Shown: positions 15,241-35,906 of the stretch, piece by piece
Layout: every line of letters starts with the position of its first letter
Numbering within the stretch: the first letter of the stretch is position 1
DNA from: [Clostridium] aerotolerans DSM 5434
GTDB lineage: Bacteria; Bacillota; Clostridia; Lachnospirales; Lachnospiraceae
Length of the DNA stretch: 42,812 bases
Direction: 5' to 3'
Assembly: GCF_000687555.1 (NCBI RefSeq)
Contig: NZ_JHWJ01000023.1
Location: 1 to 42,812 of the forward strand
Position numbers and translations under genes: made by a program
The notes under the pieces: model-generated
The model's database searches: none
The model's input: only the letters and a program-made list of their open reading frames with translations
Told to the model about the DNA's origin: nothing

Positions 15241-15290
15241 GAGAGTACCTTCCTTTCATTTTTAATAAAAATAGTTAAAGTATGTAATCT

Positions 15291-15449: not shown

Positions 15450-15458
15450 TTCTATAAA

Positions 15459-15878: not shown

Positions 15879-15881
15879 GAC

Positions 15882-16166
15882 TTATTCCTCCTTTCGTTGC
15901 TTCAGTAGCTCCGTCAATTCACTGATCAGTCCAAGACGTGTGCCGTCTGGCATTTGCTTAATGGCTACACAGACGAAGGCTTCCACCGCTTCCGGGGACT
16001 GGTCTCCCACCTCGATGAGCTCCACCTTTTGAACACTGACTGCACCCTGTCGAACATTCATCTTTACGATATCACCATAGTCCAATCCAGACGCGGAGCG
16101 CATCTCCTTTGGAATCAGTACACGGCCCTTGCAGTCAATAATTCGGTATGTTTTTTTTGAATTCAT
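15882..16166 (-). CDS. AbrB/SpoVT-type transcription regulator
   Basis: A 94-residue protein with an N-terminal swapped-hairpin AbrB domain: YRIIDCKGRVLIPKEMRSAS at about residues 6-25, then GLDYGDIVKMNVRQGAVSVQK. Such domains bind DNA as dimers and are found in AbrB, SpoVT and antitoxins. The C-terminal half (GTRLGLISELTELLKQR) is helical and may be for oligomerisation. Its start overlaps the stop of the next gene upstream by 4 bases (ATGA), so the two AbrB-like proteins are translationally coupled. No toxin gene is adjacent. Confidence 0.75.
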   Translation of the reverse strand: MNSKKTYRIIDCKGRVLIPKEMRSASGLDYGDIVKMNVRQGAVSVQKVELIEVGDQSPEAVEAFVCVAIKQMPDGTRLGLISELTELLKQRKEE

Positions 16167-16606
16167 AAATAGTATCCCTCCTTCCTCATTACCTCCCGAA
16201 TAGTATCGGGGTGAATACCAAGTTCCTGGAAGAGCCCAGCTAGTTCCTCCGGCAAACGGTTCAAAATATCCGAGGCTAAAATAACAATCGCACCATCCCC
16301 GCAGATGATTTCCAGATCACTGTCGGCAGAAATCCCCGCCCCCTCCAGCAATTCTTCTGGAAGATTCAGACCGTCCTCATTCTCTGGTTCATCCTTCTCT
16401 TCCAGCGTATCCTCCTCCGGCAGAGCGCACAGTGGTATGGCAATTTCAATCCCTGACTGCGTAAGTAAAAGAAGTGGAGCTACTTCATCTCCCCTGGATG
16501 CAAGCACCACTTCAACCTTGTTACCAGGGGTAAGTCCGGCAGGAATCACAGGAATAGTCAGAAGCCCGTGGTCGTCGACTGCCGCTTTTGTTTTCATAAT
16601 TTTCAA
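16163..16606 (-). CDS. AbrB-like two-part protein, 147 residues
   Basis: The N-terminus (KAAVDDHGLLTIPVIPAGLT, then GNKVEVVLA) resembles a divergent AbrB hairpin. An acidic linker (EEDTLEEKDEPENEDGLNL) follows at about 65-84 and a second domain begins with LPEELLEGAGIS, also AbrB-like in pattern (SDLEIICGDGAIVIL). The final part (LAGLFQELGIHPDTIREVM) is helical. It is coupled by a 4-base overlap to the shorter AbrB-type protein. A regulatory or DNA-binding role in the mobile element is likely, but no target site is identified. The TTCCTCC complement shows a good AGGAGG ribosome site before the start. Confidence 0.6.
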   Translation of the reverse strand: MKIMKTKAAVDDHGLLTIPVIPAGLTPGNKVEVVLASRGDEVAPLLLLTQSGIEIAIPLCALPEEDTLEEKDEPENEDGLNLPEELLEGAGISADSDLEIICGDGAIVILASDILNRLPEELAGLFQELGIHPDTIREVMRKEGYYL

Positions 16607-16636
16607 AATAAGTTCCTCCTTTATATTTTTTTCCGG

Positions 16637-17569
16637 TTAAGACTCATTGAAAAATAGTTCAGAATCAAAAAGATTCATTTGTAATGGCCTATCTCTCAGC
16701 CGTTCCCCGGTGTCATAGTTAGAGATGAATACCTCCGCGTATTCACTTCCGTTGTCATAGCGCTGTGCCAGGTTGTTAAGACGGCTGACTGCTTCAATGT
16801 GAAAGCCTTGGTACAGCTCCCGGATAAATTCGCAGTCATTGTAGCTGACCAAAAACTTACCCTTGCAGACTATCAGCGTATCCCGCAAGCGATAATGATC
16901 TTCCTTTCTGAACTCTACCGCATAATGTCCTTCTGTCTGGTAGTAAGGAGGGTCACAGTAAATGAAGGCATTCTCCCGGTCGTACTGTCGGATGAGATCT
17001 TCAAAGTCCTTGTTTTCAATGACTGTGTCCCTTAAACGAATGTTGGCCTGCCATAGCAGATGGAAGGTCTTTCGAATATCAAACGGCTGACAGCCAAAGC
17101 TGGTACAGCCGCTTCCGTAGCTGTAGCGAATGAGCTTAAAAAATGCAGCGGCTCGCTTGACGTCATTCATTACCGCTTGCTCCGTTAGAATCTGCTGTAT
17201 GTCCTCATAATCAGGTGGAGGTAGGTGACGCTCAGCAAGATCCAGCTCCTTTGAAAGATACTCGCTGGTGAATTCCTTCTTTGAGAGATACCTGCGCAGT
17301 ACACTAAATTCATCCCGGCTGTTCAGCGGCAAAAAGTTCAACTCCCGAACCAGGTCAAGAGTCTGCTCCTTTGCACACTTGAATAAATTTGCCAGATCGG
17401 AGTTAAAATCGTTATACACCTCCATGGCAGTATCCATGGGACGCCCGAACAGCACCCAGCCACCACCGCCAAAAACCTCAATGTAACGTCCGAACTCTTT
17501 GGGCATTCGCTGATAAATCAACTCTCTCAACGCCTTCTTTCCTCCCACCCAGCTGATGATGCTGTTCAT
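16637..17569 (-). CDS. D12-class DNA adenine-N6 methyltransferase (Dam type)
   Basis: The frame is open to 17611, but AGGTGA 5 bases before the ATG at 17569 and the start MNSIISWVGGKKALREL fit the family. Motif I region is WVGGKK and EVFGGGGWVLF (about residues 8-40); the catalytic motif IV is FIYCDPPYYQTEGHY (about 200-214). This family methylates the N6 of adenine, often in GATC-like sites. Such solo methyltransferases are common in clostridial conjugative elements and may protect the element from host restriction. The NgoPII-type enzyme 0.9 kb upstream would need a cytosine methyltransferase, so this gene is not its expected partner. Confidence 0.88.
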   Translation of the reverse strand: MNSIISWVGGKKALRELIYQRMPKEFGRYIEVFGGGGWVLFGRPMDTAMEVYNDFNSDLANLFKCAKEQTLDLVRELNFLPLNSRDEFSVLRRYLSKKEFTSEYLSKELDLAERHLPPPDYEDIQQILTEQAVMNDVKRAAAFFKLIRYSYGSGCTSFGCQPFDIRKTFHLLWQANIRLRDTVIENKDFEDLIRQYDRENAFIYCDPPYYQTEGHYAVEFRKEDHYRLRDTLIVCKGKFLVSYNDCEFIRELYQGFHIEAVSRLNNLAQRYDNGSEYAEVFISNYDTGERLRDRPLQMNLFDSELFFNES

Positions 17570-17573
17570 TTTT

Positions 17574-17777
17574 TCACCTGCCCTTGCTGCGGCGGTTGAT
17601 CGCATCAACATCCGTTTTCATACAGGTTCCATCTGGACTCCAGCAGATGAAACCGACTTGGGGGTATGGGCAGCCATCACAGCGTGTAAGATCCTGTGGC
17701 AGTGAGACACCATAGCTTTTGGGTAAACTGGTTACTCCCATACCTTTTCTTTCTGTTGGTTTTGTATTTTGATTCAT
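17574..17777 (-). CDS. Small Cys-containing protein, 67 residues
   Basis: The frame is open to 17840, but the ATG at 17777 has AAGGAG 8 bases upstream and the longer version would translate a terminator hairpin. The product contains RCDGCPYPQVGFICWSPDG followed by CMKTDVD, four Cys in all, a possible metal-binding knuckle. Its stop overlaps the ribosome site of the methyltransferase gene. Function unknown. Confidence 0.6.
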   Translation of the reverse strand: MNQNTKPTERKGMGVTSLPKSYGVSLPQDLTRCDGCPYPQVGFICWSPDGTCMKTDVDAINRRSKGR

Positions 17778-17802
17778 GCTTTGCACTCCTTTCGCTAAAA
17801 CT

Positions 17803-17838
17803 AAAAAAGGCACCATCTTTTTTTCAAAGACAGCGCCC
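17803..17838 (-). terminator. Terminator-like hairpin before the small Cys protein gene
   Basis: On the minus strand GGCGCTGTCTTT pairs with AAAGATGGTGCC (12 bp, three G-U pairs) around a 5-base loop and is followed by six T residues. It lies about 25 bases before the start at 17777, at the upstream edge of the mobile-element module. Confidence 0.65.
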
Positions 17839-17982
17839 ATTTATAAATATTTTGTTATTAGGTTGTAAAAAAAGAGCGTCTCTCAGTTTCCATTGAAACC
17901 CAAAAACGCAAATTTAATTATTATGAATATGTAAAATGGTTATCCAAGCTGCCTCCCCCATCTGTTGCCGTTGGTCTTGCCC

Positions 17983-18173
17983 CTATTCCAGTTCTTCCTG
18001 CGTCATTGTACTCCAGCTACTGCCGCCGTTCAATAAACTAACATAGATTTCTCCAGCCGAAGTTTTAATCGGTCTCCGCTCCAGATCTTCTCCAAGGCAT
18101 CAGCAACCTGCCCAATGATTATCTCCTTAAGCAGGTCAAGTTCCTCTTCGGTCAGTTCACAATGTACCCGCAT
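17983..18173 (-). pseudogene. Frameshifted small gene
   Basis: ATG at 18173 has a GAGGGA ribosome site. The frame reads MRVHCELTEEELDLLKEI and on to KIWSGDRLK, then stops at 18030 with 47 residues. In the next frame coding-like sequence continues from the same place (RPIKTSAGEIYVSLLNGG) to TAG at 17983. The natural reading is a ~67-residue gene with one frameshift; alternatively the 47-residue ORF is intact and the rest is chance. Confidence 0.45.
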
Positions 18174-18438
18174 ATTCCCTCATCTACTACATTATATTTC
18201 CAATGCCAAACGAATTGCTTTGTTCCCTGATAACGGCAGGGAACTCTACAAACTTATATCTTTCATCCATATAATCCGTTGTTTATAAGCGTATCGTGTG
18301 GTTTCTTTAGTACCTCTTCGACATATTAACGTATCCATTGAGTTGCAGGATCAATCCAGCTTTACATAGTCCAGTGTTGGCAGTAACTCATTTAATCACT
18401 CTATGAAATTAATCTGCAAATTTTTATTATGCTTACAC
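18174..18438 (-). other. Decayed coding-like stretch at the junction
   Basis: No complete gene. Broken minus-strand frames with protein-like sequence occur (LDYVKLDWIDPATQW; MDERYKFVEFPAVIREQ), separated by stops and frame changes. A 7-bp inverted repeat (TTCCCTG at 18223, CAGGGAA at 18237) has no T-run. This looks like the eroded edge of the mobile-element module. Confidence 0.35.
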
Positions 18439-19287
18439 TTATACTGAAAATGTCACTAATTTAGCTGGACGTAATTTAGCCGGATTATCAGGCTCCTTAA
18501 TTTCAACATCTAACATATTTAAGTTCTCAACCTCTCTTGCTAACCGCTCCAATTCATCTGTATATTGTAATGTATTGTACTTATCTTGATTTATCAATGC
18601 CATAAAGTTCAATTGTTTGCTTTCGTCTCTACGATATATATAATTGAAAACTTTCATAGGATTTTCAATGCCCCACATCCCTCTTACTCTAAGGTATGTT
18701 ATACCAAGTGGGTCTACTTTATTTACTCTACCTAACTCGTTTGTTACTGAAAATTCAACTCCCTCTATGGAATTAACTCCTTTACTGATTACATCTTTTA
18801 TTCTTGTATAAATCCCCTCGCTTGCAGCATAATCTTCCCCGTACACCATGCACAAGCCTGATAAAAGATTATTCTTCACTATCCCAACAGTATAAATAAT
18901 ATCTTTTTCAATCCAAGTTTCACAGTTTCTACAAGCATCAGTAATCATTGTACTATTAGAGAATATTTTCGTTTTTGGATAAGAACTGTTCAGCGCTAGA
19001 AAAGAACCTTTATTCTCAATCTTCTTAACCTCTATTGCATCTCCTCCATTGATAATAGAATCGGGTGGGTTATTTTGATTACCTAAATAAGAGAAACATT
19101 GACTTATTTTTCTGTTCCTTACCATCATATCATTTTCATTAACGGTACCCGCAAAAATATCTTTTATATATTCTTCAAGACTTTCTCCCATACTATTGGT
19201 CCTATTATGACTTTCAGAATATTGTTTAAGTTCAATAATCGGGTTATTAACTAGGTTAATGATTGCTCTTATAATATTAGTTTCCAT
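18439..19287 (-). CDS. NgoPII-type type II restriction endonuclease
   Basis: A 282-residue protein whose N-terminus (IRAIINLVNNP, then NRTNSMGESLEEYIKDIFAG at about residues 29-48) matches what I know of the NgoPII restriction endonuclease family (GGCC-recognising prototype). A PD-(D/E)XK-like active site is visible: PDS at 75-77 and DAIEVKK at 83-89. It begins 172 bases after the helicase stop in the same direction, with an AGGGG ribosome site, so it may be co-transcribed or separate. No C5-cytosine methyltransferase is present in the window, which is unusual because self-methylation normally protects the host. Its specificity cannot be read from the sequence. Confidence 0.75.
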   Translation of the reverse strand: METNIIRAIINLVNNPIIELKQYSESHNRTNSMGESLEEYIKDIFAGTVNENDMMVRNRKISQCFSYLGNQNNPPDSIINGGDAIEVKKIENKGSFLALNSSYPKTKIFSNSTMITDACRNCETWIEKDIIYTVGIVKNNLLSGLCMVYGEDYAASEGIYTRIKDVISKGVNSIEGVEFSVTNELGRVNKVDPLGITYLRVRGMWGIENPMKVFNYIYRRDESKQLNFMALINQDKYNTLQYTDELERLAREVENLNMLDVEIKEPDNPAKLRPAKLVTFSV

Positions 19288-19459
19288 TTAGACACCCCTT
19301 AATATATTTTCTCATATCACTGTATATAAAATGTTAATATGCTTTAAATTTTTGTAATTTTTTGATATCCTTCAGTTTGCGTTGTTTCATTTTCTATGAG
19401 ACTATTCAAACCGCGAGCAAGTTTGACGCTTACTATACATCTTTTTTGTAAACTATACA

Positions 19460-22400
19460 TTAAATTTTTATTCGAATCATAACATCCGCTTTCGGCAATG
19501 CATATTTTAATATTTTGTCGGAAACGGTGATAGCACCTGCAGGTAACAATGTGCTATATTCATTCCACATTGACGGATATACCACTATTTCATGCTGTCT
19601 GTCTACTGTCTTAATAAAATGCTTTGTTCCGTTGCCAATGATCTCAAACTCTGCGCTGAGTGCATTTAGCGGTCTCAGCAGCTTGTCCTGTTCTTCATAT
19701 GACAAAGCATCTGGGAGAACAGAATCCTCGCACCAATTCAGCAGTTGCAGCGCAGCCGGCCTATCCAACATTGAATGGACACGTTGGTTCCAGTAATGCA
19801 TTAAACAATCGTGACAAGCGCTATCGCATCCCGCTGGGCAATTCGTCAGAACTTCTCTGGTAATCGCCATTAGCTCATCTGTTCGCTCTGCCAGGGTCGA
19901 GCAATAACCAGCACCACTTGAAAGACTATCAAACAAGAAAACGTCAATATATGTTTTATGTTTTTCTGGTGAGTATCTCAGTCTATATCCGCTTTTTATT
20001 TCGTTGAACTCAATATCAAGTAACCGTCCACCCGCTAAAGTCAGTGCATCGGCAAGGGTCTGACCTGCTCTTCTAATCCATAAACCACTCGGTTCCACAT
20101 TGATTTGTTCTGAGTCAAGCGAAATCTCATATACAACCATATCAGTCAGGAACTGATTGCCCAAATAAGTATTAACAATCTGAGCTGCTGGGTGGTGACA
20201 CTCATAGATTCGATGAGGATGTCTGTAAGGTTTCTTAATACGGACTAGAAGGGACTCGTCATCACCGGGAATAGCTGCACCGCAGTCTTTGCAAACCATG
20301 AACCCTGTAGCTTTAGGTCCCTTATTCAAGATAATCAGTGGATCACCAGACCTCTTAGAATAGCGAAGATTATCAAAACCGTTTGGAGTCACCATTTCAC
20401 TTTCTGCAGGGGTAATTGAATAACACGGATCTTCCGCATATGTCATCTCAGCCTCAGCTTCAACTTCCTTTGCATTGATTCCATTAATTGGTGCAAACCC
20501 CCATGGTTTTAGCAAATTCTGCTGTTCAATAGTTTCCTTACCACAAAACGGGCAAATATGCTTGTACTCAAGACCCATCCAATTGCACGCACTGTTGTTG
20601 CAGTAGTATAGCGGCTTAAAATATTCCTGACTCTCAAAGAACGGACGTGCAGGGTGTTCCTGTTGATCTGGACGAAACTTGGAATGAAAGCTATAAATAC
20701 CACCGGATTTATATGTAGTCTTATTGATAACAACCAGACGTCCCGGTGCATATTCGTTTATAGCCATCTCTATTGCACGTTCGGGTTTTTGTATGATAAC
20801 AGCACCTTTATTATTTTCGACATAGAAACCAACAACATCCTTGGGAAACGAATATGTGGGGAAAATGCCACATTCAAGGAATGTGTCTAATACGCTCTTT
20901 TCATGGTCATCGTCATCCCGATATTCTCTTGGGAACTCTTCAACTTGTGTCTTTAAATGTTCAAGCTGCTCTAAAAAATCGAATTTAAAATTATCGATAT
21001 CAATTTTTACCTTGCTGGGGATAAGGGCTTTAAGATCAAAATTTTGGGATCTTAGCCCATAGATGAATGCTGTAAATTTAGCATAGGTATTTTCAATAAA
21101 GTCACAGATACCAACTGTATCCGCGCCAACACCCATTTTGTCAAAGAATTTTGTTACACATATAACACTGAGATGTCTATATGCCAATTTATTGTTTTCC
21201 ACATCGATCCAAGGTGTTCTTGGATCACCAGAAATTATTTTAGCAGGGTTATGAAAATAGTAGCTATCATGCGGTCTATTATCTGTATATGTAACAATGG
21301 TAGAAATGGCTGCACTCCTTCGCCCTGCTCGACCTGCTCTTTGCTGATAATTTTCGCGCATTGGCGGAATGTTTCTCAGACCGACTGCAGTCAAAGAGCC
21401 AATATCAATACCGACTTCCATTGTTGTTGTGCAACTAAGTACATCCACCGGACGGTCATTATCCACATGTACATTTTGAAACCGCATTTCATAATCCTCA
21501 GTGGTAGACCATGTTTTTTGACGCTGATCTTTATGAGAAAGCTGAGCGGTGTGTTCTTCAGTGTTGATACGGGTCATCAACGCCTGAGGATCGCCATGAA
21601 CTGCTCTCAAAACGGGATTTCTCCAAAATTCTATACCAGCGAAATCGTCTGCTGACATCTTTTTGGGCACGTCTTTTCCGCAATGCGCACATCTTCCCCA
21701 AAGTTTATATGGGAATACGCCACTGCATCGAGGACATTTATACCATTCATGGTCTTCATCAAAACGCAAAGCCACCATATCGGTGTTTAAATATTTTGCA
21801 GAGGAATTCACTCCTTGTACCAAATATTGCGAAAGGGTATTAGTAATCAAAAAAATTTGCTCTTTTGTAAAATCTTTTGCTTCAAGCATTTTTCTGATGC
21901 GTGGTGGCAGTGTTTTTTCGTTCTCAATTCCCAAATGTTGATGGTATGAGGTGAGTCTCCTACGGACATCATCATCAATTTCGGAACCCACCGCATATTG
22001 GGAGGTCATGATCTCCATTGCCCAGGCAGCAAAGAGTATCTCAAACTCATTAAGAGATAAATTAATCTCCGCCGCTTTAAATGCCTCCTCAATCTCGTCA
22101 AAGGTTTCATCATCGATGTCACATGGCTCTATCCAACAGAGTCCTGCATCGGTCAAGGAGCGGAAGTTACTGCATAGCTGCCGCAGCAGATGTTCATTAT
22201 ACTGATCAGGTATCGTTTTGAATAACGTTTTAGCAACAACGTCGTATTTTACCTTCCCCTGCTTCTTTTCATATTTTTCGCCCATTAAATGCACTGCTTT
22301 GAGAAGATGCTCTTCGTTATTCCCATAAAAGAAACGAAGGTTATTCTTATATGCAACTTTTAAGAATACTGTATAAAGCAGATTAAGGGTTGGTATTTTA

Positions 22401-24703
22401 TTTTCCGATTTAGCCCATTCTTGCAATTCAAACGCCGCAACGGTGAGTGCTTTTTTCATAGCATCTTCATCTGCTGCCCGTGTTAAATCCCTTGCTAAAA
22501 CCGCAGCCCTTTGACGGCTATCAGAAAATAACAACACTTTTCTGCCCTCATTTACTAGATCCCTATATTTGGGCACTGGTGGTTGAACATAAAATTGTTC
22601 TGATACCAGGTTGAAAAACGGCTCATTTCCTTTAGTTTTAAAATCGGTCGCTACAAAATGCTGCTTTTCGCATTTGGGGCAAGTTTTAAAGGTCCACGCA
22701 TCCGGCCTTCCCTTGATTTCCGTGTCACAATACGCAACCTGGATGAAGTCTGACTCTCCCGTATGATCATTGAACTCATCCAGTCGTCCAATAATCGTAT
22801 TGAGCCAAGCAACTTTCTGATCGCCTGATCGCTTATAACTCCCGTCATTCTGAATTATATAAAAATACACTTCCTTCATATCGGCGGTGAATTGCAGACC
22901 GGGTTCGTTCCAAACAAATGGATCTATGCGTTCTGAGGTATTCAGGTAACCCTTTAAGAATAATGCACCACAAGCACGTTCGTTTACCAGTTCATATATC
23001 ATTCCACCGCATTCACATCTAGAGCTTGGCTTATTCAGATATATCCGACCAAGACCAAGTGTAGTGGCATCATGATTGTTACATGTACATGCCGGATTTG
23101 AACAAGCATATATCCCTTGCAGACCACGAAACATCATATGCAAGCGTGCAGGATAAAGTATGTTTCCTCCAGAATTCTTTGCTAACGGAGCAATTGCCAA
23201 AAGGGAACTTGTAGCTTTTTCGGCAACAACATGATCAATATCCGGAAATGCAACTGATGCTAATTTGTTAAAGTTTGTTGCATTTCCACGTGTTTGCTTC
23301 ATTATACGGAGCATTGGGTTGCAAGATTCCAATTGATCATACAGCCAGTTTTCAACTGCTTCTTCATCAGTAAAATCACACGATAACTCAAATCCAACTC
23401 TTCGACCAAATTCCCGAATAGCCTCACTTTTTACACTCCATTCCTGTTGGAGAGCATCAAAATCATAGTCCATAAGAACTAAAGGATCAAATTCATTACC
23501 ATTGATATTAACCGTCACTTGTGTTCCTTTAATAAGCGCAAAAGTATTATTCTCTTCCTCTTGTGCGCTTAAATCACAAGCAAATTTATACACCTCCTGC
23601 TCCTTTTCGCTTCCAGAAGGGACACTGGCACTTGTAAGAATAAACTGCACTCTATTGCGTCCAATCCCTAACTTATGAAGAACACGGCGAACCAAAAGTG
23701 CAACCTCGCCGCCAGAAGATCCACGATACATATGTGCTTCATCAATAATGAAAAGTAGTTTGTTAGCAGGATCACTATTAAGCCATGCTTGTGTTTTGTC
23801 CCAGATTCCCTTTTCTATGGGACGCATCAGCATATATTCTAGCATGGAATAGTTTGTAATTAAAATATCTGGGCATTGTAGGTGCATCTCCTGGCGAGTA
23901 ATCAACTCCGCATCTTCCGGATCGGTTAAAAAAGTTTCGTTATTTTTCAACCGTTCAATAAAAGTAGCCAGATCCTTTTTGGAAGGGTATTTACCCAGTT
24001 CACGCAATTTGGTCTTAACTTTCTCCGGCTGCTGTAGAATATCCTTATCTATGGTTTCGGCAAGTTCATAGTTCTGGTGTCGATCCACTGTTCCTGGATA
24101 CGGTGTACGACCAGTATACATACCAAATTGCGGAACACGACATCCAGGTGCTAAATCGGAAAGTAAACTATGGAATCCGTTATCTCCGTTGCCGATCATA
24201 CGTCGAAGACGACCCAATTGGTCAGAAACAAGTGCATTCATAGGATAGAGCATAATTGCTCTAACACCACGCACTTCCCACGTTTTAGGAGAATATATCT
24301 GTTCAAGTACCAGTTTGCTGACCATTGGCCACATAAAGCATTCCGTCTTACCTGAACCCGTTCCTGTAGCCACAAATAAGTCTTTCCCACGATAATATGC
24401 CTCTAACGAGTCAATCTGGTGCTTATAAGGACTTTTGAAAACTCCAAGTGCCATTTCTGACATAGATATAAGTGTTCTTTTGACATCCTCTCCCACATTC
24501 GCAGTTTCCAGTCCATTTTCCACTGCAAGATATGCATGGCTTGCCTCAATATACGGTTCCTGATATAGCATTCCCTGACTTTGTAGCTCCGCCTCACACG
24601 CCTCACGCAACGCATCGCAGTTTCCCAAGTATACCGTGTTTATGTAGTCAAGCAGTTTATTTTTTATGGCATCATGGGTACTTTTTACTCCATACTTATC
24701 CAT
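19460..24703 (-). CDS. Large SF2 helicase with zinc clusters and DUF1998/MZB-type C-terminus (DruE/DrmA-like)
   Basis: A 1747-residue DNA helicase-like protein. Q-like SPYKHQ is at 91-96, Walker A ATGTGSGKT at 112-120, LYPMNALVSDQ near 152-162, DEAH at 321-324 and motif III TSAS at 357-360. The second RecA-like domain holds TTTMEVGIDIG and QRAGRAGRR near 1090-1130. Between and after them lie several CxxC pairs (CSNPAC/CECGG, CPKCEKQ, CPRCSG/CAHCGK, CPFCGK, CKDCG). The C-terminus has CPAGCDSACHDC near 1615-1630, the cysteine signature of DUF1998/MZB helicases. Giant helicases of this type occur in Druantia (DruE) and DISARM-like systems. The start overlaps the upstream gene by 8 bases, so it is translationally coupled. 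Likely a defence effector that tracks or unwinds DNA. Confidence 0.85.
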   Translation of the reverse strand: MDKYGVKSTHDAIKNKLLDYINTVYLGNCDALREACEAELQSQGMLYQEPYIEASHAYLAVENGLETANVGEDVKRTLISMSEMALGVFKSPYKHQIDSLEAYYRGKDLFVATGTGSGKTECFMWPMVSKLVLEQIYSPKTWEVRGVRAIMLYPMNALVSDQLGRLRRMIGNGDNGFHSLLSDLAPGCRVPQFGMYTGRTPYPGTVDRHQNYELAETIDKDILQQPEKVKTKLRELGKYPSKKDLATFIERLKNNETFLTDPEDAELITRQEMHLQCPDILITNYSMLEYMLMRPIEKGIWDKTQAWLNSDPANKLLFIIDEAHMYRGSSGGEVALLVRRVLHKLGIGRNRVQFILTSASVPSGSEKEQEVYKFACDLSAQEEENNTFALIKGTQVTVNINGNEFDPLVLMDYDFDALQQEWSVKSEAIREFGRRVGFELSCDFTDEEAVENWLYDQLESCNPMLRIMKQTRGNATNFNKLASVAFPDIDHVVAEKATSSLLAIAPLAKNSGGNILYPARLHMMFRGLQGIYACSNPACTCNNHDATTLGLGRIYLNKPSSRCECGGMIYELVNERACGALFLKGYLNTSERIDPFVWNEPGLQFTADMKEVYFYIIQNDGSYKRSGDQKVAWLNTIIGRLDEFNDHTGESDFIQVAYCDTEIKGRPDAWTFKTCPKCEKQHFVATDFKTKGNEPFFNLVSEQFYVQPPVPKYRDLVNEGRKVLLFSDSRQRAAVLARDLTRAADEDAMKKALTVAAFELQEWAKSENKIPTLNLLYTVFLKVAYKNNLRFFYGNNEEHLLKAVHLMGEKYEKKQGKVKYDVVAKTLFKTIPDQYNEHLLRQLCSNFRSLTDAGLCWIEPCDIDDETFDEIEEAFKAAEINLSLNEFEILFAAWAMEIMTSQYAVGSEIDDDVRRRLTSYHQHLGIENEKTLPPRIRKMLEAKDFTKEQIFLITNTLSQYLVQGVNSSAKYLNTDMVALRFDEDHEWYKCPRCSGVFPYKLWGRCAHCGKDVPKKMSADDFAGIEFWRNPVLRAVHGDPQALMTRINTEEHTAQLSHKDQRQKTWSTTEDYEMRFQNVHVDNDRPVDVLSCTTTMEVGIDIGSLTAVGLRNIPPMRENYQQRAGRAGRRSAAISTIVTYTDNRPHDSYYFHNPAKIISGDPRTPWIDVENNKLAYRHLSVICVTKFFDKMGVGADTVGICDFIENTYAKFTAFIYGLRSQNFDLKALIPSKVKIDIDNFKFDFLEQLEHLKTQVEEFPREYRDDDDHEKSVLDTFLECGIFPTYSFPKDVVGFYVENNKGAVIIQKPERAIEMAINEYAPGRLVVINKTTYKSGGIYSFHSKFRPDQQEHPARPFFESQEYFKPLYYCNNSACNWMGLEYKHICPFCGKETIEQQNLLKPWGFAPINGINAKEVEAEAEMTYAEDPCYSITPAESEMVTPNGFDNLRYSKRSGDPLIILNKGPKATGFMVCKDCGAAIPGDDESLLVRIKKPYRHPHRIYECHHPAAQIVNTYLGNQFLTDMVVYEISLDSEQINVEPSGLWIRRAGQTLADALTLAGGRLLDIEFNEIKSGYRLRYSPEKHKTYIDVFLFDSLSSGAGYCSTLAERTDELMAITREVLTNCPAGCDSACHDCLMHYWNQRVHSMLDRPAALQLLNWCEDSVLPDALSYEEQDKLLRPLNALSAEFEIIGNGTKHFIKTVDRQHEIVVYPSMWNEYSTLLPAGAITVSDKILKYALPKADVMIRIKI

Positions 24704-25706
24704 AAGTCCCCTCCGTTATCTTCAACCCGAGCCCTGCCAAATACGGCTTTATGTACTCCCACACCGGAAATGGCATATCCCACTCTAATCTATCAGTAAT
24801 GCTGTTATGTGGCCATGCACATGATTCCAGAAGTACACCTTCCCTCGTTGGTAAATGGATTCTTAATTTCAGTTCTATATGATCGGAATATTGAATGACT
24901 TGAATTGGAACAGGATTTCCAGAAACCGCTCGCATCCCTATCATAAACCTATGGTGTTCTCCAAGTTCCTGCAATACAGGATCAATCCTATGGATTTTGT
25001 ATTCATTGGGTTTATATAACAAATATTCATATGAATTTTTATTGACGATTCGGCGAAGCAAAACTATATCCCCAACTATCTGTGGAAGTATTGTTTGCCA
25101 GCATGCATGATTATTTCTGGATTTTTTGTAAGAATCAAAATACTGAATTCCTTCATCTAATAAATCTGTCTGATGCCACCAGGCGCTCTTGATGTATTGA
25201 CCAAACCACTTGCTTACATGCGGAACCATTTCTGGAATTATTTTTTTGTCATGTGGTGTCAAAACAATATTTGCTACACCAGAATATGTATTGTTAGCCT
25301 GTAATACATTACCTTTGATACACTCAAGATTTTGCGTCAATTGTACCCGTTTTGGTGTCGTAAGAGCTACATTAGTACTAAATCCAACATTCACCAAATC
25401 ACCGTTACGTAGCAATCTACTTCGGAGCATGATAACAGGATTTTCTGGATTACCTTCGGTTTCAAACCACATTTTGCAATCGGGGTATCTCTTTAACAAT
25501 TCAGCTAGAACAGCCGAACACTTATTGTTAATATGCCGACGACTTATACCTGGGGTTGTATTAATGCTTCCGGTTATAGGGCAATCCATACTCGCGGCTT
25601 TTATCCAGCATGCCATTGCTGAATATAGGATCCTATACCTATATTGAACATCGGTCTCAATCTCATATTTAGTTATACCCAAATCAGAAGCCATCACGTA
25701 CAGCAT
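24696..25706 (-). CDS. Unknown protein of the helicase operon, 336 residues
   Basis: The frame also allows a GTG start at 25727, but ATG at 25706 has GGAAG 6 bases upstream and is preferred. The protein starts MLYVMASDLGITKYEIETDV and contains STNVALTTPKRVQLT at about 110-125, a W-rich helix (VSKWFGQYIKSAWWHQTD, near 165-182) and an FMIGMRAVSGNPVPIQVI stretch near 255. No membrane segment, zinc motif or catalytic signature is evident. It lies between the coiled-coil protein and the helicase and is coupled to the helicase by an 8-base overlap, which suggests a stoichiometric subunit such as an adaptor or specificity factor. Its size fits small core genes of Druantia type I, but I cannot confirm homology. 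Confidence 0.75.
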   Translation of the reverse strand: MLYVMASDLGITKYEIETDVQYRYRILYSAMACWIKAASMDCPITGSINTTPGISRRHINNKCSAVLAELLKRYPDCKMWFETEGNPENPVIMLRSRLLRNGDLVNVGFSTNVALTTPKRVQLTQNLECIKGNVLQANNTYSGVANIVLTPHDKKIIPEMVPHVSKWFGQYIKSAWWHQTDLLDEGIQYFDSYKKSRNNHACWQTILPQIVGDIVLLRRIVNKNSYEYLLYKPNEYKIHRIDPVLQELGEHHRFMIGMRAVSGNPVPIQVIQYSDHIELKLRIHLPTREGVLLESCAWPHNSITDRLEWDMPFPVWEYIKPYLAGLGLKITEGTYG

Positions 25707-25728
25707 CTTATCTTCCACTTTTTTCACC

Positions 25729-28700
25729 TCACAGATACCGCGATATTTCTTTGTTTGCCTCTAAATCGATACCAATAGACGAAAGTTCTCTCAGTAACAG
25801 TTCTTTTTTTCCTGTAGACAGCGCATGAAGTGTGATTTGCGTCAAAATCTGAGTATTATCCTTTAGTGTACTATCGGTTTCTGCCATAAATTTGGCATAG
25901 TTTAGCATTGCGGTATTACTAATTATGCTAGAAAGGTTTTTCAATTGTTTTCTCTTGCTTGTTGTTTCCTCAGATGTGCATCTAATGCCAAACTCAACAA
26001 TTGTTGTATGTATGGAAATATTCTCTGTCCCCATATAATCCAGCCCTGTATCCCCATCAATGAACATAGTTTGACCCCAAACATAACTAGGAATCATATT
26101 AACAGTAACACCATTCAATGGAAATATCAGGACAACGTTATTTCTCCAGATTTCCGACTGAAGTGTGATTTCGTTGAAGCCGTTCAGGCTCAACCCATCA
26201 AACACTCCATTTACCACAACTACACACTTCTTATCAACGGACGCGTTTTGAATTGCTGCACAAATACCAGAACAGTCCGGCTGGCTTATAGATTGCGATG
26301 TTGTGTATGCCCCCACATTTCCAAACATTGCCGCAACACAATCAGCTATTTTGAGAGCATTTGTACCACATACGATCGGCAAGCGATTTTCGATACAAAA
26401 TGTGATCATCTGAGCCATATAGGTTGCTATGATATCATCATACCCTACCGCACTCAGATTATCTGCTAATTCGTCAACAAACGTTTCTACATCTGTTATT
26501 TCTTCACCCTGTATTCCATCAATCCTTCGCGTGGTTAAAACCATTCTCAGAGAAGAATTTACCGCCATGGAATACTCTTCCGTTGCGAATGCAGGAGTGG
26601 AAAATGCCATTTCGCAAATGAAGTCCGATGCGTTCTTCCGTGCGGTAGCAATACGTTCTGCTATTTTCCGCTCCACATCGTTGACCAATGCAATTTTCTC
26701 ATCAATTGCCACTTGAACTTCTGCCTTCTTATCCTGCAGAATGCTATAAGAAGATTCGAGTGCTTCAACTTCCATACGTCGCGCAGTAACTGCACTTTCT
26801 ATCTCATCAAGTTGTTGTTGTGCATAATACAATCTTTCAGCATTTTCAGATTCCCAAGTAGCCGTCAGCAAATCTTTGCATTTGTTTACTAGTTCTTTAT
26901 TATGATCCAATGCAACAGCAAGCGTTCCAATATCTAAATCATTTTCTGCTAAATAGGAATCGGCCTGTTCGATAAATGTCAAAACATATTCCTGAGCCTC
27001 AGCTTCTGTACAAGCGTAGGCATCAGCGATCTCCTGGAATATCGTCTGGAGTGGCAGATTCTTCAAGAAACTTTGGCAGTGTTGCGCTTCTTTTTTACTT
27101 AGCCCTTGCTGCCGGAGTACAGCGCTTGTAGCGCGCAAAATTATAACATCTTTTACAACGTCCATCGGATTCCTAATCTGAAATACTCCTTTGGACATGC
27201 CTAAGCTGGTAAAGCCATATATCTTTTTTCCAGCGACTGTTAGGATATCGGTCGAAGTTATTTCAAACCGTGGCAGTGTGTAAACCGTGGATTTTAACTT
27301 TGCATTTCCATTATTAACATCAAAATCTCGCTCATTACACAGCAAACCAATTATTTGACCAGCATTATCTCGACAGATAAAAAGACACTTTCTCCCCTGT
27401 GTTGGAGAAAAAATATTGCTTTTCAAAGCTTGAGCAATATCCTCATATCTCCGGCATTCGGAAAGCTCAATAACTTCAATAATTTTGGCATTGTCAGCAT
27501 ATGCTGTAGTTACATAGTCAGTAGACGGATCGGATTTATTAGGTGCAGCATTCCACTGCCAAATGCCAATAAATCCCTCCTCTCTCGGACCATTCTTCCA
27601 AAAGAGACGATCCCGGTTTTTAAAATAATGTGGTGCAACTTCATTCTTGGTGAAACGAGTGATTTTTCCGTCCTTTATGTCTGCCAAACGGGACAACCAC
27701 ATTTGCCCAGAGTAGTAGTCTAAAAAAACCTCACAGATTGAGGCATATTCGTATTCATTATTATAAGCATCTTCCGCTTCTGTATCGGTATATTTTGTTA
27801 GCTCATAAAAATGATCCAGTTCCGCCTGCATTACCTGCACTTTTTCAGCAAGCGTAATATTTTGTGCAACCTCCGCATCCAAGTCCTGTTGCATAGTTGT
27901 CTTTTCTACTTTAGCATTAGCCAATGATTCCTGTATTCTACTGTATAATACCTTTTCTACTTCTATTTTCTGTCGCAGTTGTTCTATCAACGCCAGTAAC
28001 TCAGCGTTTTTCTCTTTCACCGCAGAAAGTTCAGATGCATCATGCTGATCTAGCGCAACTGCTGCACCATTATCACTTTCCTTCACCACGGATTTATCCT
28101 TAAGTAGCAATAATGCTGCCTTCACCAAAGCAATATATTCAACTAAATATTCCTCGTCTGAAATTTTGAAAAACAAATCAATGTTGTCCGAAAAAATGCT
28201 CGTAGAAATGGCAAGCAGTAATGATTCTTGGGGCGAAGCACCTTTCTGATCCAGGTCATTACGACACTCTTGGATCTGCAGCAACCATTTATCAATCCAT
28301 TTTTTCAAAAATGAGGCAACAAAAGGGCTATTCGAGTTTTTACAAACAAGCGTAATGGTATCATCATCTGACAAAGAATTCACCCGGAATCCAGGTCGAA
28401 TTTTTGCAAATTCCTTCGGATGTTTCTGGAAATAGGTGCGAATTTCTTTTGGGGTAACCAAACGACTAACATACACGATTTCCTCGTCTGTCAGGTCAAA
28501 AAGTACGGCTTCTTTCTTTGATGCTTTCACTCCCTCCGTGAGCACCAGACTGGGAAAATCACACAAAGCCATCTCTTCACTATCGGTATTATTATTGCCT
28601 GTCTGCCTCTGAACAGATTTCAAGTATCCATAGCAACCGTTACAAATTTGGAGTGTTACACCATCTATAATACACTCTGCGTATTTTTTTGCTGCTTTCT

Positions 28701-28782
28701 GCTCACTACACCGAGCACATGTAAAAGGCATAATCTTATCTTGCTTTATGTATTTTGCCTTTAATATATCTATTTGTTTCAT
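25729..28782 (-). CDS. Zinc-finger/coiled-coil protein with P-loop-less ATPase-like C-terminus
   Basis: The start is placed at 28782 (AAGGAT, 9 bases upstream); the frame is open to 28821. Of 1017 residues, the N-terminus has a four-Cys cluster (CARC at 22-25, CNGC at 47-50). A long coiled coil spans about 255-335, a mixed domain about 340-620, and a second coiled coil about 660-740. The C-terminal ~280 residues look like an AAA-type core (PIVCGTNALKIADCVAAMFG near 800, KKCVVVVNGVFDG, NNVVLIFPLNG) but the GxxGxGK loop is replaced, so nucleotide binding may be lost. The gene is flanked closely by operon partners on both sides. A structural or sensor role is more likely than catalysis. No family is recognised. 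Confidence 0.75.
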   Translation of the reverse strand: MKQIDILKAKYIKQDKIMPFTCARCSEQKAAKKYAECIIDGVTLQICNGCYGYLKSVQRQTGNNNTDSEEMALCDFPSLVLTEGVKASKKEAVLFDLTDEEIVYVSRLVTPKEIRTYFQKHPKEFAKIRPGFRVNSLSDDDTITLVCKNSNSPFVASFLKKWIDKWLLQIQECRNDLDQKGASPQESLLLAISTSIFSDNIDLFFKISDEEYLVEYIALVKAALLLLKDKSVVKESDNGAAVALDQHDASELSAVKEKNAELLALIEQLRQKIEVEKVLYSRIQESLANAKVEKTTMQQDLDAEVAQNITLAEKVQVMQAELDHFYELTKYTDTEAEDAYNNEYEYASICEVFLDYYSGQMWLSRLADIKDGKITRFTKNEVAPHYFKNRDRLFWKNGPREEGFIGIWQWNAAPNKSDPSTDYVTTAYADNAKIIEVIELSECRRYEDIAQALKSNIFSPTQGRKCLFICRDNAGQIIGLLCNERDFDVNNGNAKLKSTVYTLPRFEITSTDILTVAGKKIYGFTSLGMSKGVFQIRNPMDVVKDVIILRATSAVLRQQGLSKKEAQHCQSFLKNLPLQTIFQEIADAYACTEAEAQEYVLTFIEQADSYLAENDLDIGTLAVALDHNKELVNKCKDLLTATWESENAERLYYAQQQLDEIESAVTARRMEVEALESSYSILQDKKAEVQVAIDEKIALVNDVERKIAERIATARKNASDFICEMAFSTPAFATEEYSMAVNSSLRMVLTTRRIDGIQGEEITDVETFVDELADNLSAVGYDDIIATYMAQMITFCIENRLPIVCGTNALKIADCVAAMFGNVGAYTTSQSISQPDCSGICAAIQNASVDKKCVVVVNGVFDGLSLNGFNEITLQSEIWRNNVVLIFPLNGVTVNMIPSYVWGQTMFIDGDTGLDYMGTENISIHTTIVEFGIRCTSEETTSKRKQLKNLSSIISNTAMLNYAKFMAETDSTLKDNTQILTQITLHALSTGKKELLLRELSSIGIDLEANKEISRYL

Positions 28783-28836
28783 AAGCAATATCCTTTCAAA
28801 ATTTATGTGTTTACAACACATTATTTTGCAGCATTA

Positions 28837-30420
28837 TCATTCTTGCATTTTTACTGAAACTTGAAGTATCTTTAGCAACCCTCGTGGAATTTTCCCGTTG
28901 TGTATATATCTCCGAACAGCGAAAGACAAAGTACCGTGCCCATTTCTTTGCCACTCAGACAATAGAAATCCAATCCATCGCGGAGCAGGAACATACTCTC
29001 CTATACAATTTTTATTGATTTGACGCAGTACATTCTGCTCGTTTATGCTTAGCTCCTGTATGGTATTAGTTCCATACTGCTGCAAGATCCCGTTTTCAAC
29101 AACAAAAATTATTTCCGCTGGGTTTCGTCTGGCTGGTATAGTTGTATAGGAACTGCGGATTGGTACATGTAAATAGGTTTTGTCATGACTCCCAATATAC
29201 AACTCCATTTTGGCATTACTTTTTAAAACTAGATCAGATGATAGGGAAATGGATGTTAATGCCTCAAAATCAAGAGCCGTACCATCTTGCTTCTCAATAG
29301 CAATCTCGTAGGCATAATCTTCAATAGCAAGCAGCTTTTTCCGAAATATAATCTCTCTGCCTATATACTTTCTATCTACCGAAACTACCGTTTCATGTTT
29401 ATAAATTGGTAGTACCAATGCATTCACACCATTACCGTCCTGATTAATAATAAGGGGAGAAACAATATTAGAATTGTAAGAATAAACTTTGGGAACAGTG
29501 TTCCCACTTGATACTCCACAATAAATGACCGATGTGTTTTTTGTTGGCACCAACACATCCTGCTCCGTCACCGGAGGCCAAAGCACAATCAATTCCGGTG
29601 CTGTTTCCAGTAACAAAACTCCAAACTGAGATTTCAGATAGTTGCTAATCACTGTAAACCTATTCTCATCGTCGATAGATACATTGACCGAAGCGGTGTA
29701 TACCAAATAATTACATTCATTCAGTCGTATCGATCCTATACGCTCGGTCTTAATTTCACTATAAGGGGAATGAAACTGTTTCGTAACAATATAGTACAGC
29801 CGTCCGGGCGAAATACTGTCACCACGTCTTATTTTCTTCCCTCCAGTTTCTTCGTATGTAAATATCGCGCCGCCCTGAGCAAATCCATCCGAATAATCAG
29901 ACCATTTTCTTTTAATTTCGTATCCGGCATCGACCTGTATAGAATAGTTTGTCCCCCATTGGGGTACAAAATCTACGGGTAGCATCGTTGTAGCATCTTC
30001 CCGAAAATAAGTATGATTGATTGGAAATATCCTATCTTTTCCATAACCCGATATACATATTTTTAACTTTTGTCTTGATGCTATCTCAAGAAGTCTTTCT
30101 CCTATTGCTGGGAACATAATGTTTATGCGGAAATTGGATTCCCCCAGTCGTATTAAACTCATCGGAAGCCCCACTCTTTCGTAGAGGTTCAGTTCAGATC
30201 TTCCATCTACACGTTTATCACACTCTGGTGATGATGCCATTTTTGTATAATGGCAGAATTTATTCGGTTGAGTTCCTCCCCTAGATCTCCAAAAGACGGG
30301 TTCTCCACATTCTGGGCAGAAAAAACGTATTTTTCTTTGGGGTATATACAAGTTATAATACTCATCAGCACTCACTTCTTCTTCGGAACCGATTCTGATG
30401 CGATCAATTGCATATTTCAT
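28837..30420 (-). CDS. CoiA-like zinc-domain protein, first gene of the helicase operon
   Basis: The start at 30420 has GGGGGGTGA 7 bases upstream; the frame is open to 30489. The 527-residue product has an N-terminal cluster FFCPECGEPVFWRSRGG at about 33-50 and, after a short linker, HYTKMASSPECDKR. This resembles the zinc N-domain of CoiA-like and related nuclease-associated proteins. The remainder is beta-rich and otherwise featureless, without a clear PD-(D/E)XK core. The next gene begins 55 bases after its stop. As the promoter-proximal gene it is probably a core subunit. Its size is close to what I recall for DruB, but sequence homology could not be tested. Confidence 0.75.
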   Translation of the reverse strand: MKYAIDRIRIGSEEEVSADEYYNLYIPQRKIRFFCPECGEPVFWRSRGGTQPNKFCHYTKMASSPECDKRVDGRSELNLYERVGLPMSLIRLGESNFRINIMFPAIGERLLEIASRQKLKICISGYGKDRIFPINHTYFREDATTMLPVDFVPQWGTNYSIQVDAGYEIKRKWSDYSDGFAQGGAIFTYEETGGKKIRRGDSISPGRLYYIVTKQFHSPYSEIKTERIGSIRLNECNYLVYTASVNVSIDDENRFTVISNYLKSQFGVLLLETAPELIVLWPPVTEQDVLVPTKNTSVIYCGVSSGNTVPKVYSYNSNIVSPLIINQDGNGVNALVLPIYKHETVVSVDRKYIGREIIFRKKLLAIEDYAYEIAIEKQDGTALDFEALTSISLSSDLVLKSNAKMELYIGSHDKTYLHVPIRSSYTTIPARRNPAEIIFVVENGILQQYGTNTIQELSINEQNVLRQINKNCIGEYVPAPRWIGFLLSEWQRNGHGTLSFAVRRYIHNGKIPRGLLKILQVSVKMQE

Positions 30421-31147
30421 ACATTTCACCCCCCACTTCACACACATTTTTGTCAATTCCCCGAACAGAGTTCCAGTAATTTCTCCCAATCAGAATTAGC
30501 TTCTTTAAAACGCTTAGTTTATTCAAACACAGTATTTGTTAACTGGGGCAATAATCGTTTTTCCAATCCTTTTTCCCATATCAATGGGTACATTGCCGAT
30601 TTGCCGATATTTAGCTGCCGTCGTTCCACTAAAAACTTACGCATCCGGAAATTGATGTATTAGCTCACACTCCTAGACACTCAACGGCTTTCCAGAGTCA
30701 GATGGCATCATAGTCATCTTTTAAAATTGACCTTTCAGTCTACCTTGAAAAACCAATTAATTATACCTTAGCCATATTCTTTACTCCCATATTAGGGTTA
30801 TAATCATTAATCGATATTATCTATATCTGCGAATATCACTTGACAAGAAATTTTCACTCGTTTGGCATTCGTTATCAATACTACGCTCATTGCAATCTTT
30901 AACATTATAATTGTATATCTTTAGGATCTTTGTTTCAACAAAAAGAACTAAATTTTTCTAATATTTAATATATATAAAATGACATGAAAGTTTTGTCCCT
31001 CATGTCCTAAATTTTAGTACACTAATTTATTTCTCCAATAATTTAGTTACTTTTCTTCTGTAATAGGATTATAGATTATACATATGTCAAGTATGTAAAA
31101 AAGGTACATGTGAGTCTTGTTTAAGCTCTTATTATTCACCATCATTA
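30421..31147. other. AT-rich gap without clear genes
   Basis: About 730 bases upstream of the helicase operon, so its promoter must lie here or beyond. A 41-codon minus-strand frame at 30519-30644 has no ribosome site. TTGACA occurs on the minus strand near 31090 with TATAAT-like boxes at unsuitable spacing. Nothing else is supported. Confidence 0.4.
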
Positions 31148-31841: not shown

Positions 31842-33479
31842 TCATAACTTTTTCACAGGACGCATTACCTCATCTGTTTCTCCATCTATTAAATTTCCTG
31901 TAATATACTTTTCAAGAAGGTCCAATGATAAACACGTTACAACTCCGTCTTTATCTTGAAATTCCATCTCAATTGGTTTCGATGACAGAAACAGCATATG
32001 AACTGATATCTCCTCTTTAGTATCCAAAAATTCTTTGATTTTTTGTGGCTCTGCTAATACTAAATCGTATCTTCTCCTACAGTGATCATAATAGCCATCT
32101 TTTTCAAATATTTTATGATAATCTGTCACCATTCCACTTGAATTTAGTGAATCAGAAAAATACTTCGATTCAATTAAAATAAGTTCTTTCTTACTTTCGT
32201 CAAAGTAGACAATGTCAAAATCTCCGTAATTAATTGAACGTTCTCCAAAAATTCTATAGTATTGAACATCTTTATAATCAACTTTAGGAGTGTAATGCTT
32301 CTTCAGTATTTCTCTTGCTTTAACCACCAGAATATCTGACAATTCCTTATTTCTCTTTTCCATCGCCCGGGTCAAGCTATCTGGATTTTTAGGATTAGTA
32401 TAGCACATTCCACCATTACTAAAATAGGATACCCATAGCTGCTTTGCTTGTTCTAATGCTCCATATGCAATAAGAACATTTCCGTCATCCAAACCAATAA
32501 ACGGTCTGAGTTCATGTCTATATTTATTGGCTCCTACAATCCATACTATTTCTTCCTTTTTTCTCAAATGCTGCTTTATTTTCTCTTTTGTCAAAACAAA
32601 GCTTTTGTAAAAGGCTTCGCCATCTTCTATTTTCGAATTAGTATAATTTTCTACTAAGGAAATGAATGTTTCCTTAGTAATTACAGTCAATGATTTATCA
32701 TCTCTCCGCAGTTGATCCTCGTGAAAACTTTTTATTGTTGCCAGAAACAATAAAAACTGCACTTTATTTTCATCAAAAAAACCTTTCCCAAACTCTGTAT
32801 CGTTTGCCTCTGGAGTCAATGGTCTATCAACCAGTACGTTTTGATTACCCACAATAGCAGTGTTAAAATAAATATACGGATGATATTTCAGAACTTCTGC
32901 TGGTATATCTTCTCCTTGAGTTATCTCCAATCCATAGAATGTATTTTCTTCTCCAATCTCTTTAGATAACATAAGAAGTGAAATCGAACGAGATGCAAAA
33001 CCGTATAAATACATATCTATTATTAAAGAGTAATCCATTACAAATTCTTTTTTGACATTTAATTTTCTAATATCTAAATCATGTTGATACAACACACAAT
33101 TTTCAATCCAAATATTACAAGCATCTATTATATCTCTTTCGATATTCCTATTAACAGTAAATGCCTCAACCACAGCTTCGTCATTAATATTCTGTTCTAC
33201 CAATTCTGCTCTAATTTCTTTTTCTGTCAAATAAAGAGAATGCACTTCATCAAACATAAAATACAACTTCAAAAGTAATCCATATGTACTCTCCACATTT
33301 AAACGAGCAACCATTTCTTTTTGTATTGTTGAAGTAATATTCATAAGAATCTTTATTGCTTCTTGTCTATCTTCAACTCTACAATGTTTTTTCCCAAAAA
33401 AGAATTCAAATCTGCATTTTAATTTGCTACGTGGTATTCTCATTCCATCCCAAAATGACATTATCTGAAACATTAGCAT
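31842..33479 (-). CDS. Unknown protein with C-terminal PD-(D/E)XK-like nuclease motif
   Basis: A 545-residue protein with AGGTAAGAT just before its ATG. The N-terminal ~380 residues are helical and polar with no named domain. Near 418-441 the sequence runs NYGDFDIVYFDESKKELILIESKYF-like in pattern: an Asp followed about 16 residues later by E-x-K in a beta strand, the core of PD-(D/E)XK nucleases. A nuclease role is therefore inferred. It lies downstream of a DUF262-DUF1524 gene with a decayed gene between them, which fits a restriction or defence function. What it recognises is unknown. Confidence 0.7.
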   Translation of the reverse strand: MLMFQIMSFWDGMRIPRSKLKCRFEFFFGKKHCRVEDRQEAIKILMNITSTIQKEMVARLNVESTYGLLLKLYFMFDEVHSLYLTEKEIRAELVEQNINDEAVVEAFTVNRNIERDIIDACNIWIENCVLYQHDLDIRKLNVKKEFVMDYSLIIDMYLYGFASRSISLLMLSKEIGEENTFYGLEITQGEDIPAEVLKYHPYIYFNTAIVGNQNVLVDRPLTPEANDTEFGKGFFDENKVQFLLFLATIKSFHEDQLRRDDKSLTVITKETFISLVENYTNSKIEDGEAFYKSFVLTKEKIKQHLRKKEEIVWIVGANKYRHELRPFIGLDDGNVLIAYGALEQAKQLWVSYFSNGGMCYTNPKNPDSLTRAMEKRNKELSDILVVKAREILKKHYTPKVDYKDVQYYRIFGERSINYGDFDIVYFDESKKELILIESKYFSDSLNSSGMVTDYHKIFEKDGYYDHCRRRYDLVLAEPQKIKEFLDTKEEISVHMLFLSSKPIEMEFQDKDGVVTCLSLDLLEKYITGNLIDGETDEVMRPVKKL

Positions 33480-35777: not shown

Positions 35778-35906
35778 TAAACAGTTCTCCAAATTCTTTA
35801 TTCTAAGATCTTTTCTTTACGCATTCTTTTCTAGCGTCTTGTTTCAATATGATTATAGTTAATTATACATCTTTGGTCAAAATTTTTCCATAATTGTCAT
35901 AAATAA

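Follow-up and report, generated by a model that had tools for sequence, protein, structure and literature searches.

A Druantia type I-like operon of [Clostridium] aerotolerans DSM 5434 probably represents a DruA-independent subtype with an exchangeable restriction-modification pair in about half of its relatives

The DISARM system consists of DrmA, DrmB, DrmC, and a methyltransferase, and the proteins of Druantia type II are named DruM, DruF, and DruG. Druantia type I, as carried by Escherichia coli MB1 (L036) and Pseudomonas putida pKF715A (L002), has DruA together with DruB, DruC, DruD, and DruE in this order. A passage of PMC10273834 describes Druantia type II as a methyltransferase, a helicase, and two further proteins, and a passage of PMC12458937 ascribes a predicted inactivated Vsr nuclease to the DruE of type I. 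Here, we analyzed the 42,812-nucleotide (nt) contig NZ_JHWJ01000023.1 of [Clostridium] aerotolerans DSM 5434 (C23 of a genome of 4.73 Mb with a completeness of 99.97%; the whole contig is called the window), which harbors a four-gene operon encoding counterparts of DruB, DruC, DruD, and DruE, with no DruA. We put at roughly 60% the probability that this operon represents a subtype of Druantia type I that is independent of DruA and has DruBCDE as its core, the place of DruA being taken in approximately half of the relatives by a type II restriction-modification pair that is exchangeable. Literature searches, whose coverage left out most subscription journals, retrieved no description of a DruA-less Druantia arrangement headed by a restriction-modification pair.

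The four genes lie on the minus strand in the order druB-like (28837..30420; 527 amino acids [aa] from the conserved start, with the longest open reading frame [ORF] extending to 30489), druC-like (25729..28782; 1017 aa), druD-like (24696..25706; 336 aa from an ATG, with a GTG-initiated ORF of 343 aa reaching 25727), and druE (19460..24703; 1747 aa). All four reading frames are open. The spacing is tight, with a 54-nt gap between druB and druC (counted as 55 bases in the first-pass annotation of this DNA, which was otherwise correct on spacing), a 22-nt gap between druC and druD, and an 8-nt overlap of druD and druE. The same B-C-D-E order was found in 20 of 26 distinct druB-like loci, the window counted; the other six are either cut by a sequence end (L021, L031, and L033) or incomplete (L013, L023, and L025). 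The gene maps comprised 21 loci from named genomes, four viral contigs, and two further genomes; L029 and L013 are one prophage, L030 and L016 are one locus, and the C gene of L032 was assigned by position and a shared profile, without a direct long-C profile match. The operon is thus real and conserved beyond chance. Its druB-like gene is rare: within the same family, three genomes out of 397 carry it (the window's own included), and within the phylum, one out of 398, namely the window's own.

The druE product matched the DruE1 model with 1860.7 bits over residues 1 to 1741 in searches with PADLOC profiles, to which all PADLOC results here refer, compared with 319.7 to 615.9 bits for the DruE2, DruE3, and DruE4 models and at most 51.1 bits for DrmA. 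The protein is a superfamily 2 (YprA-type) helicase with DEAD, Helicase_C, and MZB domains (Pfam), and it shares 32.2% identity with E. coli DruE across residues 2 to 1744. Judged from these matches, the helicase is a full-length DruE of Druantia type I. The 336-aa protein matched PADLOC DruD1 (58.9 bits; E value, 1e-16), and its profile was collinear with two DruD rows (hhalign, 75%, decreasing to 55% with a third row added).

By contrast with DruE1 and DruD1, no Druantia model of PADLOC matched B or C of the window even at an E value of 10, and a search of NCBIfam assigned none of B, C, and D to a family. The druB-like protein has a CoiA-N-like zinc motif followed by beta-rich domains, and B of a relative (L032) exceeds the CoiA_N cut-off. 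In profile-profile comparison, 18 B rows matched 27 DruB rows at 91.3% (hhalign; E value, 9.4e-7), or 92.9% (E value, 3.8e-7) with four more diverged rows included, whereas the C and D profiles, used as off-target controls, reached 0.2 to 0.3% against the same 27 rows; against only two DruB rows, the B profile gave 18.6 to 58.3%. Both families have a start like M-x-YAI-D/N-K/R and the zinc cysteines in common. Besides, the diverged B of C. ljungdahlii (L022) matched PADLOC DruB1 directly (E value, 1.2e-9). A structure model of the druB-like protein (predicted local distance difference test [pLDDT], 72.0) matched no PDB structure at an E value of ≤0.001, and its top rows were beta-sandwich proteins. 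When the best 7994 candidates were scored for each, homologues numbered at least 26 for C, itself included, and at least 95 for E. coli DruB; among 291 B homologues, the best 120 were inspected.

The druC-like protein contains an N-terminal zinc-like motif, a helical domain, two long coiled coils, and a C-terminal AAA+-like domain. It matched the DruC proteins of E. coli and P. putida at 94.5 to 95.2% (hhalign; E values, 3e-8 to 8e-8), best in the C-terminal half, whereas wrong partners gave 0.1 to 1.4% and an unrelated 955-aa protein gave 0.1 to 0.2%; the match dropped to 82.9% with that unrelated protein as a third row. The C profile also hit P. putida DruC with an E value of 4e-9, part of the plain score being coiled-coil bias. 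The structure model (pLDDT, 76.2; predicted template modeling score, 0.36) shows both coiled coils and, at the C terminus, an alpha/beta domain, and Foldseek returned four PDB matches at an E value of ≤0.001, the best of which were AAA+ clamp-loader subunits (best E value, 2.9e-4, and probability, 1.00, at a TM-score of only 0.30 by target and a root mean square deviation of 17). No Walker A motif was seen by eye in the AAA-like domain, suggesting that this modeled domain may be a degenerate ATPase. The druC product has 885 to 1050 aa in most relatives, 635 to 721 aa in L020, L022, L032, and L033, and 627 aa in E. coli. The 955-aa protein, which is encoded beside DruA in Nitrosococcus and had been considered as a possible long DruC, was rejected for this lack of similarity. 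Haloarchaeal genes beside DruA were poor matches to the profiles of B, C, and D, reaching at most 24.4%.

On the strength of these profile comparisons, DruB and DruC have remote homologues in the 527- and 1017-aa proteins, whose genes stand in the canonical order. Because they stand together with DruE1 and DruD1 matches, the operon descends from Druantia type I, with which it shares the B-C-D-E order, a full-length DruE1, the DruD1 match, the zinc N terminus of DruB, and a coiled-coil DruC. It differs in lacking DruA, in the longer druC of most relatives, and in the type II pair, or remnants of it, that many relatives have in first place. Like Druantia type II, relatives of the operon carry a cytosine-5 (C5) methyltransferase beside DruE, but their partner proteins are B, C, and D, and the methyltransferase is paired with a type II restriction enzyme; DruF and DruG of type II and DruH of type III had no PADLOC match among the operon proteins. 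DISARM likewise combines a YprA-type helicase with a methyltransferase, but DrmA and DrmB matched only short helicase stretches (best, 51.1 bits), and DrmC matched none of the operon proteins. The first-pass annotation had proposed a new subtype or system built around a giant YprA/DUF1998-type helicase, without DrmC or an intact methyltransferase and with partners that include a CoiA-like zinc motif and an AAA-like domain, and in these respects our results agree with it. The partners are not unrelated to Druantia, however. Of the clear full-length matches to named subunits that would, according to that annotation, have refuted its proposal, the one for DruD was obtained directly, and DruB and DruC, on which the PADLOC profiles used here are silent for this branch, were reached through profile-profile comparison or intermediates.

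The link to restriction-modification lies upstream of druB, where the first-pass annotation missed it and where the window holds only remnants. In the relatives, a C5 methyltransferase followed by an EcoO109I-type restriction enzyme precedes druB in L007 (by Pfam) and in L015, in L016 from Selenomonas montiformis, and in L032 (by similarity), and a methyltransferase with an Eco47II-type enzyme takes this place in L012 and L018 (by Pfam) and in L014 and L028 (by similarity). Besides, an Eco47II-type enzyme alone precedes druB at the contig ends of L017 and L033, a methyltransferase with a BsaWI-like nuclease precedes it in L031 (51 nt from restriction enzyme to druB), and a methyltransferase alone, 2 nt away, precedes it in L006. 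In the eight loci other than L031 with both pair genes, the restriction enzyme and druB lie on the same strand, with 20 to 50 nt between the ORFs in seven loci and an 8-nt overlap in one, as measured from the longest-ORF starts. Three of the upstream methyltransferases were tested and matched the DruM2 models but scored best against type II methyltransferase models.

Directly upstream of druB in the window is a broken C-terminal remnant of a C5 DNA methyltransferase (30526..30720, minus strand; PF00145, 26.2 bits, three internal stops), which reached 39.3 and 40.6 bits against two profiles of C5 enzymes and is 46 to 52% identical (E values, 6e-12 to 2e-9) to the upstream methyltransferases of L006, L007, L015, and L016. 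Between this remnant and druB lies a C-terminal scrap of an EcoO109I-type restriction enzyme (30453..30518, minus strand), which aligned beside the restriction enzyme ends of L007, L015, L016, and L032 and has a similar counterpart in L005; its identity rests on place, order, and a shared stop, since tblastn alone gave an E value of 0.56. The window thus keeps the order of methyltransferase end, EcoO109I end, and druB, as if the middle portion of the pair had been deleted. Pair remnants are also found in L005, L020, and L023. In L020, a 69-aa ORF (9771-9980) before druB is the N-terminal part of an Eco47II-type methyltransferase, and a second C5 methyltransferase (20171-21583) lies behind druE. 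The 545-aa protein encoded before the remnants in the window was rejected as a replacement partner, as L005, the nearest relative, has other genes there.

An intact C5 methyltransferase lies directly upstream of druB in half (9 of 18) of the complete operons, and 11 of 18 give a signal of such an enzyme in the 2.6 kb preceding druB, including the remnants of the window and L005. This count omits L009 and L017, which have less than 2.6 kb upstream, L021, L031, and L033, which are cut, and L013, L023, and L025, which have no complete B-C-D-E; the N-terminal remnant of L020 was missed by the profiles and is outside the 11. Of Wadjet loci of the same bacterial family, used as a control, 1 of 21 was positive (Fisher p, 0.00025 against 11/18 and 0.0022 for intact genes only, values that overstate independence because the loci are related by descent and that serve as guides only). 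The positive one was L053, which had entered the set via the EcoO109I search; without it, the control gave 0 of 20. The Wadjet set was drawn from 42 listed JetA places and comprised 21, 20 of them chosen by upstream room (two of these with only 1399 and 2472 upstream bases) plus L053. As the first profile had been trained partly on tested loci, the count was repeated with a profile of seven methyltransferases not beside druB, again giving 11 of 18, against 0 of the 20 other Wadjet stretches. On the downstream side, 1 of 7 operons (of the 20 complete ones) had a C5 methyltransferase in the 10 kb behind it.

The pair is exchanged on related cores and shared by diverged ones. L016 and L018 have DruE proteins that are 73.3% alike and unrelated restriction enzymes (23.3%), whereas L032 and L016 have restriction enzymes 82.5% and methyltransferases 76.1% alike, with DruE at 52.7%, DruB at 30.8%, and DruC at 24.7%. 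On the DruE tree, the EcoO109I label required four changes, at least three of them forced by supported branches. In the EcoO109I trees, druB-linked and free enzymes are interspersed with three label changes; a single origin of the linked enzymes appeared in 0% of 200 bootstrap trees, although well-supported branches force only one change. This suggests that the pair was recruited repeatedly to the druB slot.

Among the 397 genomes of the same family, EcoO109I-type genes occur in six, at seven places, of which one is linked to druB and six have no druB or druE in the examined flank. The restriction enzymes of L051 to L054 matched with 354 to 495 bits (phmmer). Their pairs stand before a methyl-directed restriction enzyme (L051), an HD-CE/HATPase protein (L052), Wadjet (L053; JetA and JetC tested), and another methyltransferase with an NsnA-like gene (L054). 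The copy in L055 is divergent, and the contig of L045, 3259 bases long, carries no druB. These free-standing pairs thus belong to the same enzyme families as the linked ones but are followed by genes other than druBCDE.

Several points weigh against the proposed DruBCDE core with an exchangeable pair, apart from the shared descent behind the Fisher values. The likeness to DruB is confined to approximately the N-terminal 300 residues. Six of the 18 complete operons have neither pair nor remnant, and the C. ljungdahlii genome (L022) gave no PF00145 match, so that the pair is not needed everywhere. The EcoO109I-type pair is possibly a general neighbor, since it also stands before other defense genes. 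Furthermore, the core outlived its pair in the window, where the four genes look to be under purifying selection: the ratios of nonsynonymous to synonymous substitution rates (dN/dS) between the window and L005 are 0.22 for B, 0.19 for C, 0.15 for E, and 0.35 for D, the last on only seven changes. Because the core seems to be kept though the pairs of both loci are broken, the pair would be helpful or optional rather than essential. Synonymous divergence (dS) between the same two loci varies along the operon, from 0.166 (B) and 0.107 (C) to 0.014 (D) and 0.028 (E), which indicates recombination within it.

Much of this favors another explanation, namely that the pair and DruBCDE are layered, independent defenses that share an operon for co-transfer and expression without acting on each other's products. 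Bare cores, free EcoO109I-type pairs (four of the six before other defense-type genes), and a core kept at dN/dS values of 0.15 to 0.35 after decay of its pair would all be expected from it, and we consider it a serious, if rather unlikely, contender. However, the druB slot is favored far above both the Wadjet control and the downstream side, the spacing between restriction enzyme and druB is tight or overlapping, and the interspersion of linked and free enzymes in the trees suggests, but does not prove, repeated recruitment.

If the pair and the core of the proposed DruA-independent subtype do cooperate, the methyltransferase would mark host DNA and the restriction enzyme would cut unmarked phage DNA, so that ends would arise only on unmarked DNA. 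DruB, DruC, DruD, and DruE would form the core antiphage machine, a complex of the zinc/beta protein B, the coiled-coil, AAA-like protein C, D, and the DruE helicase, which might load on broken or single-stranded phage DNA, unwind it, and hinder its repair and replication. Nuclease action would come from the restriction enzyme or from host nucleases, and the pair would be a helper and not a must, as the core also occurs bare. A passage of PMC13192584 reports that type III DruE engages 3'-tailed and single-strand-containing DNA, and its authors suggest there that the mode of activation of the DruE core is set by its partners. More speculatively, DruA and the restriction-modification pair could replace each other as self-marking or licensing modules of a single DruBCDE core, and the core would read or exploit how modified host DNA differs from unmodified phage DNA, an idea that we regard as unlikely. 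If it were true, DruA would be an enzyme that modifies DNA or reads its modification, and Druantia I, Druantia II with its methyltransferase, and the present form would follow one principle with three plug-in modules. The natural series of DruBCDE with DruA, with unrelated pairs, or bare implies that DruBCDE is the core and the first position a swappable module. It amounts to a ready experiment, in which the contribution of DruA to the core becomes testable by swapping in a restriction-modification pair.

The absence of DruA, noted already in the first-pass annotation, holds beyond the operon, as PF14236 (DruA) had no match in the window's own genome. The search took 23 genomes with this DruB family, some of them draft, leaving out those of L021, L028, L031, and E. 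coli, and PF14236 was silent in 22 of them, whereas both plasmid positive controls (W01 and W02) matched. Could the operon nevertheless be an ordinary Druantia type I whose DruA is merely diverged or located elsewhere in the genome? B, C, and D have themselves diverged strongly, and 1 of the 23 genomes (G017, the source of L024) has a DruA-domain ORF on another contig; but with PF14236 silent in all others and no gene of an unassigned family recurring before druB among the mapped loci, we think this improbable. In the DruE tree, 20 DruA-less rows were split from three DruA rows by a 100/100 branch. None of ten DruA-bearing stretches, eight of which also encode a DruE-type helicase, contained these methyltransferase or restriction enzymes. 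A passage of PMC10853773 calls the DUF4338 domain of DruA a GNAT fold. A PDB sequence search with E. coli DruA gave no match, and a search with a nine-row DruA alignment gave a best E value of 0.0098, with no acetyltransferase among 11 rows; as the PDB offered no confirmation, the GNAT reading rests on that one literature passage. Lastly, that the operon is a non-functional relic, a decaying copy in a defense island, is very improbable, for the upstream pair is broken in the window but the four core frames are open, with the dN/dS values given above.

Behind druE, after 172 nt, lies a gene for an NgoPII-type restriction enzyme (18439..19287, minus strand; 282 aa; Pfam RE_NgoPII, 385.4 bits; PADLOC REase_II, 422 bits), which we take to recognize GGCC. 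The first-pass annotation had noted this enzyme behind the four genes, but it does not belong to the conserved unit: behind druE, the window and L005 agree for 94 nt and then differ up to the end of the L005 contig, 212 nt after druE, and no NgoPII-type gene was found within 10 kb behind seven other operons. No C5 methyltransferase stands beside the enzyme in the window. The only intact one in the genome by PF00145 (contig C1, 23288-24250) matches M.HaeIII (1DCT) with 470.8 bits, and this M.HaeIII-like enzyme is likely to protect in trans against the NgoPII-type enzyme.

The surroundings are rich in defense genes, as first annotated. A 545-aa protein without a clear family, defense-like, is encoded at 31842-33479, a GmrSD-type protein (PADLOC HEC-05, 643.9 bits) at 34059-35792, and a protein that partly matches Dsr1, a SIR2 protein (204.4 bits), at 37591-41112. 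The left part of the window (1-11188) has pilus/secretion-type genes together with DUF3852, DUF4320, DUF6550, and YodL genes, as integrative elements do, and a tRNA-Ala gene lies at the right end (42666-42739). Hence, the defense genes of the window may be the cargo of a mobile island. In Succiniclasticum ruminis and an IMG/VR contig (L013, equal to L029 and L035), a prophage-like region carries druB- and druC-like genes (10001-14824), with no druD or druE within the stretch examined; this two-gene unit may be a reduced form, a relic, or an interferer with the system. Another IMG/VR contig (L028) carries a complete methyltransferase-Eco47II-druBCDE operon (7906-20666), followed by an ORF starting at 21282 that is integrase-like by eye, and the DruBCDE system may accordingly travel on prophage-like elements.

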